From positions 1 to 64,000 of the forward strand of contig BLMC01000010.1 of the NCBI GenBank assembly GCA_011959805.1: a stretch of 64,000 nt of DNA, read 5' to 3'. The first letter of the stretch is position 1. Every line of letters begins with the position of its first letter. Position numbers and translations under genes: made by a program. The notes below the pieces were generated by a model. It was not told the DNA's origin and ran no database searches. It saw only the letters and a program-made list of their open reading frames with translations. Positions 2,757 to 58,461 of this stretch are shown in pieces. The DNA comes from Lachnospiraceae bacterium. GTDB taxonomy: Bacteria > Bacillota > Clostridia > Lachnospirales > Lachnospiraceae.

Positions 2757-3179
2757 ATGAAACGAAAAAAATTAAGACGCATTATAGTAGATGGAAAAGC
2801 ATTTCTGTGGAATTATTTTTATGATGATATGGATTTTGTAAATTATCCTTATTCTTACTATTTGTTTGTGCCAGAAGAAAACCAGCAGTTAAAAGTCAGG
2901 GTATATTTTACCAAGTATGAGCCACAAATGAATTTAGATGTTTATACTTATGAAGGGACAGTTTGCCAATACCAAGGAGAGCAGACTGTGATGAATCTAT
3001 GTAGACCTTTTTTTGCAGCGCAGGTGATAAGGTATGTTTTTGAAAATTGCTGCGAGGAAACAGATACTGGCGAAGTGGAAATTAAAGATGGTGAAGCAAT
3101 TTTGGAAACTTTGGGATATTCAGATTTTTATGAAGATATTTGGGTAAAAGGTTTGGATAATAGGATACAGTTTATCTAG
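2757..3179 (+). CDS. conserved-looking hypothetical protein
   Basis: 140 aa, not recognised. Begins with a basic stretch (MKRKKLRR) and is rich in Tyr and Phe, with alternating beta-like segments (KVRVYFTKYEPQMNLDVYTYEGTV) and an acidic C-terminal half. No signal peptide, membrane segment or enzymatic motif. GGGAGAA lies 8 nt before ATG 2757. It follows the XRE regulator by 27 nt and is probably co-transcribed. Its last codons lie beside or within the 5' part of the RNA element at 3169-3310. Confidence 0.6.
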   Translation: MKRKKLRRIIVDGKAFLWNYFYDDMDFVNYPYSYYLFVPEENQQLKVRVYFTKYEPQMNLDVYTYEGTVCQYQGEQTVMNLCRPFFAAQVIRYVFENCCEETDTGEVEIKDGEAILETLGYSDFYEDIWVKGLDNRIQFI

Positions 3180-3310
3180 GACTTTGTACTATGCTGCAAA
3201 TTAGGGTTTATCAAGCCACGTAAGAACACATAGAGGTTGAAGTGCATCAAGCCATCGTGAAATGATTGTGCATGGCTTGATGCCTGTAACAGGAAGCTGA
3301 AGGCGGAACT
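3169..3310 (+). ncRNA. structured RNA element, copy 1 of 2 (partner at 58289-58431)
   Basis: A segment of about 140 nt with a clear homologue between rpsB and tsf. Shared pieces in order: AGGACTTTGTA; a small hairpin (GGTTT 3205-3209 / AAGCC 3213-3217); AGCCACG; a long stem (GCATCAAGCCAT 3244-3255 / ATGGCTTGATGC 3272-3283); and the invariant CCTGTAACAGGAAGC (3283-3297), itself a CCTG-TAA-CAGG hairpin. Closing pairs AGTTT (3169-3173)/GAACT (3306-3310) and CTTT (3182-3185)/AAGG (3300-3303) make it a multibranch fold. Two stem positions change in a compensatory way relative to copy 2. Here it precedes the macrodomain gene. Not assigned to a known family from memory. Confidence 0.65.
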
Positions 3311-3357
3311 ATTACGGATAATAGAATTGTAATTTTGCGTTTTTCATTTCTATTTGA

Positions 3358-4683: not shown

Positions 4684-4987
4684 CAGAGTTGTCAGTTTTT
4701 ATAATTTTTCTAATGTATAGATTCTGTATTTTGAACAGAATTCAAAGTGATTCTAAAAATATATCTGGCCAACATAGAAAATTTAAAAGTTGGGATATCT
4801 CATGCCAAGGAGGCAACTGCTTCGGTGTGAGATATTTTTTTGATAGCAATCTCTTGTTAACTATGGTATGATTAACAGGTTAGTTATCTCAGCCGGAGAA
4901 AACTTCTGCGTGTGTTAAAGCTATCAGAAAAGTTGTTGAAAGACACGTATTAAATGAAAAAAGATGATATAAGGAGTACGAAAGATT
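4684..4987 (+). other. 304-bp intergenic region: terminator plus possible leader
   Basis: Contains the terminator at 4795-4841 and, after it, a stretch before the EamA gene with weak local pairing (TTAACA near 4871 with TGTTAA near 4914; GGAG/CTTC inside). A candidate promoter TTGATA...TATGGT lies near 4840-4868. A 63-codon frame (4680-4871) crosses the terminator and is not credible as a gene. No known riboswitch signature was recognised. Confidence 0.4.
4795..4841 (+). terminator. intrinsic terminator after the HD gene
   Basis: ATATCTCA (4795-4802) pairs with TGAGATAT (4828-4835), followed by a T run to 4841. The 25-nt apical part contains a smaller stem TGCC/GGCA (4803-4806/4812-4815), so this is a branched terminator. 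Confidence 0.65.
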
Positions 4988-25509: not shown

Positions 25510-25650
25510 TCATGGGATACAAAATGTGTTATATAATTTGTAATAGTTTAGCCATGCAGAATTTGGTAACTTATGAATAGCATAGCTGAACTTTTACTAT
25601 AATTTCTATAGAAATAGCATATTTTGTATCCCGTGAGATGGGATACAAAA
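25510..25650 (+). other. fliK leader with two mutually exclusive stems
   Basis: GGGATACAAAA occurs at 25514-25524 and again at 25640-25650; the complementary TTTTGTATCCC lies between at 25622-25632. The middle arm can pair with the upstream copy (extending to about 20 bp with wobbles, 25510-25529 with 25617-25636) or with the downstream copy (11 bp, 7-nt loop). No T run follows. It lies in the transcript expected from the sigma-D promoter at 25456, 30-40 nt ahead of the fliK start. Confidence 0.6.
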
Positions 25651-58275: not shown

Positions 58276-58288
58276 TTGAAGATAGAGT

Positions 58289-58431
58289 AACAGTTCAACC
58301 AGGACTTTGTAGCAAGTGCAAAGTATAGCTTATAAGCCACGAATAGCGCTGAAAGTAAGATGTATCAAGTCACTACGAAATAGTTTTGTATGATTTGATA
58401 CCTGTAACAGGAAGCCAAAGGCTGAATTGTT
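58289..58431 (+). ncRNA. structured RNA element, copy 2 of 2 (partner at 3169-3310), between rpsB and tsf
   Basis: Outer stem AACAGTTCA (58289-58297)/TGAATTGTT (58423-58431), 9 bp with one G.U; next CTTTG (58305-58309)/CAAAG (58416-58420); main stem GTATCAAGTCA (58362-58372)/TGATTTGATAC (58391-58401); then CCTG-TAA-CAGG (58401-58411). In the main stem, relative to copy 1, two pairs change C-G to U-A and one G-C becomes G.U, keeping the pairing. It occupies nearly all of the rpsB-tsf gap, ending 18 nt before the tsf RBS. Confidence 0.7.
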
Positions 58432-58461
58432 ATAAGATAGAGGAAGCAGGAGGAATATAAA

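Follow-up and report, generated by a model that had tools for sequence, protein, structure and literature searches.

Two copies of a structured element in the window

Two copies of one element lie on the plus strand of the window, that is, the whole 64,000-nucleotide stretch of Lachnospiraceae DNA that was analyzed. Copy 1 (152 bp, positions 3164-3315) is situated upstream of a Macro-domain gene, and copy 2 (147 bp, 58287-58433) occupies the rpsB-tsf gap between the genes for ribosomal protein S2 and EF-Ts. A preliminary description of the window had correctly placed two copies with shared sequence blocks here, the true bounds being slightly wider. These bounds were set by the inverted ends and the duplicated targets: both copies carry terminal inverted repeats of the GTAACAGTTCAGCC type and are flanked by perfect target duplications, 9 bp for copy 1 (GGATAATAG at 3155-3163, identical to 3316-3324) and 8 bp for copy 2 (AAGATAGA at 58279-58286, identical to 58434-58441). 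The same ends were returned by two covariance models, R1 and R2, that were trained without the window copies, and the R2 E-values for the two (9.2e-16 and 4.9e-13) show that they are not chance matches. The host ORF of copy 1 is truncated; it now encodes 140 aa with the stop inside the element, compared with 169 aa across the joined flanks.

The plus strand of the element folds into three parts. Hairpin A measures about 10 bp; the main stem has 11 bp, encloses a smaller hairpin of 4 bp and is bulged on its 3′ side; and the right-end hairpin, of 7+3 bp, pairs an internal GTAACAG repeat with the right end. In copy 1, the main stem with its inner hairpin and 3′ bulge spans 3244-3283 (arms 3244-3254 and 3273-3283), and the right-end hairpin, which has one C-A mismatch, spans 3286-3315; in copy 2, the corresponding plus-strand positions are 58362-58401 (arms 58362-58372 and 58391-58401) and 58404-58433. 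Hairpin A is an insertion variant in both window copies, with its 5′ arm region AGGACTTTGTA at 3178-3188 on the plus strand of copy 1, and in copy 2 it agrees poorly with the model of the family. Comparison of the main-stem arms of copy 1 (GCATCAAGCCA/TGGCTTGATGC) with those of copy 2 (GTATCAAGTCA/TGATTTGATAC) confirmed the changes that had been described, namely two pairs going from C-G to U-A and one from G-C to G.U.

Another feature of the window is a 58-bp mini element at 25540-25597, flanked by TATAATTT at 25532-25539 and 25598-25605. It has the same kind of ends, lacks the internal motif and gave no match to R2. It is a shortened member of another MITE family, one that shares these ends but has a different interior (ATGCAAAATTGA...) and a full length of about 187 bp, and that was also seen at loci L194, L195, L202, L300, L336, L354, L363 and L367.

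The fold is conserved by compensatory change

To assess the fold across copies, 43 non-redundant copies were kept, 41 of them were aligned together with copy 1, and 31 of these 42 entered a plain MAFFT alignment, from which insertion variants were excluded, as were most of the types whose stems differ. In this alignment, 95.8% of cells were paired and 11 of 41 pairs showed two-sided change, counts that include a six-pair pseudoknot that later failed and that holds 3 of the 11. Model-based searches then yielded two larger alignments. A4 comprised 123 matches from 100 sources (the search covered these sources, not all loci), and 34 of its 35 pairs had two-sided changes, in 332 cells versus 48 for shuffled partners. 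A5, from the genus survey, comprised 102 matches in 40 genomes; 96.4% of its cells were paired, and again 34 of 35 pairs had two-sided changes, in 752 cells, compared with 226 when partners were shuffled and no more than 115 when they were slid. Both alignments were model-fitted, their cells are non-independent, and covariation was counted without a tree. None of the 102 A5 copies was 95% or more identical to the model seed, only one reached 85%, and no flanks were shared with the earlier loci.

Subfamilies share the architecture and differ in the letters of their stems, and the inner hairpin and main stem covary though they are not transposase ends. That the fold was kept while the sequence was largely rewritten suggests that it matters to the element itself. 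Right-hairpin variants were seen at L335, L357, L362, L378, L123 and L422, where the internal repeat had changed together with the right end and the left end not always.

It is worth noting that the support is comparative rather than energetic. When folded alone, copy 2 was more stable than shuffled versions of itself (z -3.87) but copy 1 was not (z -0.77), and the minimum-energy folds of the window copies paired the two ends and did not form the right hairpin. Taken across the aligned copies, the sequences nevertheless confirm the conserved fold. The preliminary description had read the stem changes as a fold kept by compensatory change and had proposed a covariance-model search for further copies and covariation; both were found, and the covariation was strong.

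Additional pairings were considered and rejected. A pseudoknot of the hairpin A loop with a downstream GCGTAG was 81% paired in the 31 rows, but over all copies it was not above shuffled partners, and neither was pairing of the loop with the immediate flank. An excess of loop pairing appeared only at scattered offsets (2 and 11 in A4, 6 in A5), none common to both sets. An intrinsic terminator was also rejected, as no T excess was observed (2.63 T per 8 nt after the element, 2.64 before).

In Rfam, no family matched the window at gathering score, and a permissive search of 301 bp around copy 1 gave two chance-level matches only. Among 12 loci, the single match at gathering score lay elsewhere in L424, and the element was without a match in the permissive search. 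The L424 match is a Clostridiales-1 RNA (RF01699, 93.4 bits) at 152-310, about 1.2 kb from a copy. In the genome from which the window comes, a T-box leader (RF00230, 108.5 bits) was found near a copy, on the reverse strand of L016 at 1130-1394.

The element has many copies in its own genome and is patchily distributed in Lachnospiraceae

Model R1, built from the 31 copies with the window copies left out, gave 35 matches at E≤0.01 in the element's own genome, a number that includes one match found again on the other strand and one copy counted as two pieces; the count of two copies given at the outset was thus too low. Across Lachnospiraceae, R1 matched at E≤1e-6 in at least 44 of 397 genomes and at least 40 of 334 genera, lower bounds because eight candidates were scored per genome. 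Searching 391 Clostridia genomes sampled from the class with R2 gave six matches, all in Lachnospiraceae. The distribution is patchy: the same-genus genome G196 was without a match in the survey of eight scored candidates. A pattern scan of named genomes detected at least 116 stretches, and among the matches listed were Lachnospiraceae, Mediterraneibacter (itself of this family, and including the cultured M. agrestimuris DSM 111629) and Hominisplanchenecus, as well as single records titled "Clostridia bacterium" and "Bacterium 1xD42-87". A strict pattern applied to one genome per genus was positive in 1 of 250, the own genome only; finding the other copies took the covariance model. No copy was found in phage and plasmid collections by distant BLAST with one type-1 copy as the query. 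Four IMG/VR viral contigs (L177-L180) carry the right-end pattern, and phages or prophages may therefore carry the element.

Each copy is an insertion

Copies retrieved by a motif search of the own genome and lined up showed that the element ends in GTAACAGTTCAGCC ... GGCTGAACTGTTAC and that 8 bp is repeated just outside. The first wider set held 122 rows, in which a copy could appear more than once under alternative pairings, and 107 distinct right ends, 105 of which had both flanks. The two flanks agreed at 7-8 of 8 bases in 83 of 120 rows, compared with about 1% for shuffled flanks, and in 80 of the 105 when counted once per right end. Similarly, agreement was observed in 65 of the 102 copies of the second set, from the genus survey. 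All sets together provided 116 distinct perfect 8-bp duplications, with an A+T content of 70%.

Furthermore, copy 2 was missing from the rpsB-tsf gap in all ten same-genus genomes for which this gap was in hand (L520-L528 and L536); L520 and L521 have a short gap, in which one stretch resembles the target. The gap of L523 (G806) is longer than in its relatives. The right part of another copy was suspected there by eye, but the model gave no match, and this remnant was discarded.

Inverted ends together with a perfect target duplication indicated that each window copy is an insertion, so that the element is a MITE and not a resident leader RNA. It is short (about 137 bp in its common form), occurs in many copies, is bounded by terminal inverted repeats and target-site duplications, and contains no transposase gene. 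Hairpin elements of the IS200/IS605 type are not known to have inverted ends or a target duplication; as both are present here, the element does not fit that type. The positions before the Macro-domain gene and tsf are where the copies landed, and the element is not the leader dedicated to those genes that its placement in the preliminary description had suggested. Of that earlier reading, the conserved fold outside Rfam held, whereas the mobile insertion, with its inverted ends and target duplication, had been missed. Thus, the fold is real and strongly supported, and its setting is corrected to a mobile element.

Some loci showed unusual forms. On the reverse strand of L114, a copy (4775-4911 or 865-1001) is accompanied by tandem partial left ends spaced by copies of the duplication GTTTACAC. 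L087 and L228 hold elements of only 29 and 32 bp that have these ends and 7/8 flank matches, and the shorter of the two looks like a right-end hairpin with nothing else attached, which would fit a hairpin able to move on its own.

Copies lie preferentially in the direction of the neighboring genes

Gene context was examined with ORFs called by length only. The first context set took in 94 of 140 copies (elements of at most 200 bp in loci of at least 3 kb), of which 81 had a neighbor on both sides, 3 lay inside an ORF and 10 were without; copy 1 fell outside this set because its left end has five mismatches. The second comprised 98 of 102 copies, 90 with both neighbors, 6 inside an ORF and 2 without. 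Between co-directional genes, 51 copies ran with the genes and 18 against them in the first set, and 39 and 21 did so in the second, which amounts to 90 with and 39 against (p 8e-6) when pooled. For co-directional copies, the median distance from the upstream ORF to the start of the element was 18 bp in the first set and 29 bp in the second.

One strand of the element appears to be under selection

A double-stranded palindrome, or correction from arm to arm, would give G.T and A.C equally, whereas a folded single strand would favor G.U. The ratio of G.U to A.C was 103:52 in A4 and 82:23 in A5. In the register-fixed right hairpin of A5, it was 27:2, compared with 43:32 for the control pairs of left and right ends; the right-hairpin result rests on A5 because the pattern used to retrieve the A4 loci (from L061 onward) itself fixes this hairpin. 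The skew was weak in type-1 copies alone (87:55 cells, and 23:22 as distinct pair types; 149 of 284 copies counted), and their loop changes leaned the same way, at about 1.27:1 per base by our own normalization (raw 188:252).

Copies antisense to both neighbors showed a ratio of 26:12 and co-directional copies 63:26, and unpaired cells were about equally rare in the two groups (3.6% and 3.1%, p 0.86). The presence of the same skew in antisense copies argues against strand-biased mutation and against selection confined to the individual host mRNAs; it favors selection that acts on active elements as a lineage. An excess of G.U over A.C that extends to antisense copies indicates selection on one single strand and not merely a double-stranded palindrome. 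Judged from these sequence patterns, the selected strand is most likely RNA.

An IS66-family transposase is the most likely mover

An IS66 domain was detected in 14 of 20 carriers and in none of the other 6, and it was not found in the own genome, which is 86.5% complete. Some carriers hold IS66 elements with GTTAC-type ends and 8-bp duplications. That of L248 is 2251 bp long, with ends GTTACTGTTCAC and duplication GCTGCTTT, and that of L273 is 2323 bp, with ends GTTACTTTTCACGGGT, duplication TATCAATA and one stop in its transposase frame; L262/L275 have the ends GTTACAGTTCAC. The L248 transposase matched PF03050 and also NF033517, the latter below the curated cut-off, and relatives of this type were present in 8 of 29 genomes searched, the own genome being without one. 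IS66 insertions duplicate 8 bp. The MITE likewise has an 8-bp duplication and ends beginning with GTAA, as for the IS66 type, and a GTTAC end variant is also common, although the agreement between MITE and IS66 ends extends over about 11 bp only. Among 39 IS66 loci, the fold occurred only in L249, as a separate copy at the edge.

Two parent candidates were dismissed: a 1355-bp one in L082, whose poor ends fall within an unrelated ORF, seems to be a coincidence, and in L297 a GTAACAGTTCAGGC end is accompanied by no more than a C-terminal fragment of IS66. On the likeness of ends and duplications, the mover would most likely be an IS66-family transposase.

A structured MITE and the competing explanations

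We propose that this element of Lachnospiraceae, commonly about 137 bp long, is a MITE, a DNA transposon that does not move autonomously. Its terminal inverted repeats GTWACAGTTCAGCC are acted on by a transposase, probably of the IS66 family and supplied in trans, and 8 bp of target is duplicated at insertion, as the observed duplications show. Between the ends, the plus strand folds into the hairpin of about 10 bp, the 11-bp main stem and the right-end hairpin, the last formed with an internal version of the end repeat, as covariation shows. The G.U excess points to selection on one single strand of the element, presumably acting as RNA. The fold would help the element to persist or to move: insertions in operons may be better tolerated with it, or it may cooperate with the machinery of transposition. 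We regard this explanation as a whole as probable. A more specific version, in which the transcribed element binds an IS66-type transposase or a host factor and so promotes its own mobilization or survival, is a tentative conjecture from the sequences and rather doubtful. To our knowledge, the DDE (cut-and-paste) transposons are not a class known to need an RNA partner.

A resident cis-regulatory RNA, such as a leader or riboswitch-like element of the downstream genes, would have a conserved fold and would mostly run in the direction of its neighbors, as is observed here. It would not be bounded by target duplications or absent from corresponding sites, however, and the neighbors of the copies are unrelated (a Macro domain, ribosomal protein S2 and EF-Ts), 18 and 21 copies in the two sets are antisense to both neighbors, and Rfam gave no match. 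This account is thus contradicted as a general one and very improbable, and it is possible that single copies were co-opted. More serious is an ordinary palindromic MITE, in which template switching or gene conversion between the arms corrects imperfect palindromes again and again, so that pairs look compensatory although neither strand is selected. Such correction needs no selection to change both sides of a pair, the end repeats have to remain inverted regardless, and changes in the right end are followed by the internal repeat; even the 23:22 distinct pair types of type-1 copies are what it predicts. Equal G.U and A.C would be expected throughout, however, and the 82:23 of A5, the 27:2 of its right hairpin and the 26:12 of antisense copies all depart from this; moreover, the inner hairpin and main stem covary, yet are not transposase ends. 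We consider it unlikely.

The selected strand could also be single-stranded DNA that is folded and recognized at excision, replication or insertion, to which we give a small chance. G.T pairs better than A.C in DNA too, the skew is independent of gene orientation, and the orientation bias could reflect replication direction. Duplications of 8 bp and inverted ends are typical of double-strand DDE transposons, however, and unlike those of known single-strand transposons, and the position of copies close behind stop codons in co-directional pairs (medians 18 and 29 bp) better fits transcription. A MITE whose fold is selected as RNA is the reading that we prefer.

The usual view of MITEs is that they are remnants for which the ends suffice. 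In this element, about 35 base pairs, lying between the ends and including one of them, are conserved over about 40 genera with their letters largely replaced. With the fold conserved and one strand favored even in antisense copies, the interior of a MITE can be selected as a folded single strand. This explains a class of intergenic sequences, structured and conserved, which in this major family of the gut might be taken for riboswitches; the covariance model is available to annotate such elements.

Comparison with known elements

REP/BIME, ERIC, BOX and RUP repeats are likewise dispersed, hairpin-forming and intergenic, but they have other sequences and other hosts than the Lachnospiraceae MITE. 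The open-access literature searched, outside which most subscription papers lie, yielded no paper naming the element, nor were its end letters found there. The terms IS66, Lachnospir and Clostridi are absent from a 2024 review of prokaryotic MITEs (PMC10969869). In another paper, IS66 ends begin GTAAGCG... and GTAACCG... (PMC12888890). IS66 insertion sequences resemble the MITE in their GTTAC- or GTAA-beginning ends and, in MITE carriers, 8-bp duplications; unlike them, the MITE has no transposase gene, and the complete IS66 elements found here lack the fold.

QMITE2 and other prokaryotic MITEs, as that review describes them, have inverted ends, 7-9 bp direct repeats and a stable predicted transcript fold (PMC10969869), and in all three respects they are like the Lachnospiraceae MITE. 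The fold described there, however, is a prediction from one sequence, whereas the internal hairpins of the Lachnospiraceae MITE covary across genera.

In the literature searched, the closest known kind of element appears to be bcr1 of the Bacillus cereus group, which also shows compensatory changes. Together with bcr2 and bcr3, bcr1 is described as a short, dispersed, MITE-like repeat often found in UTRs or between operon genes (PMC3446304), and it is recorded with a conserved structure in another source (PMC2267715). So described, bcr1 and the Lachnospiraceae MITE are alike in being short, dispersed and MITE-like with a conserved structure. They differ in host group and sequence. Set against bcr1, the Lachnospiraceae MITE has stems that are entirely replaced from one subfamily to another, over about 40 genera.
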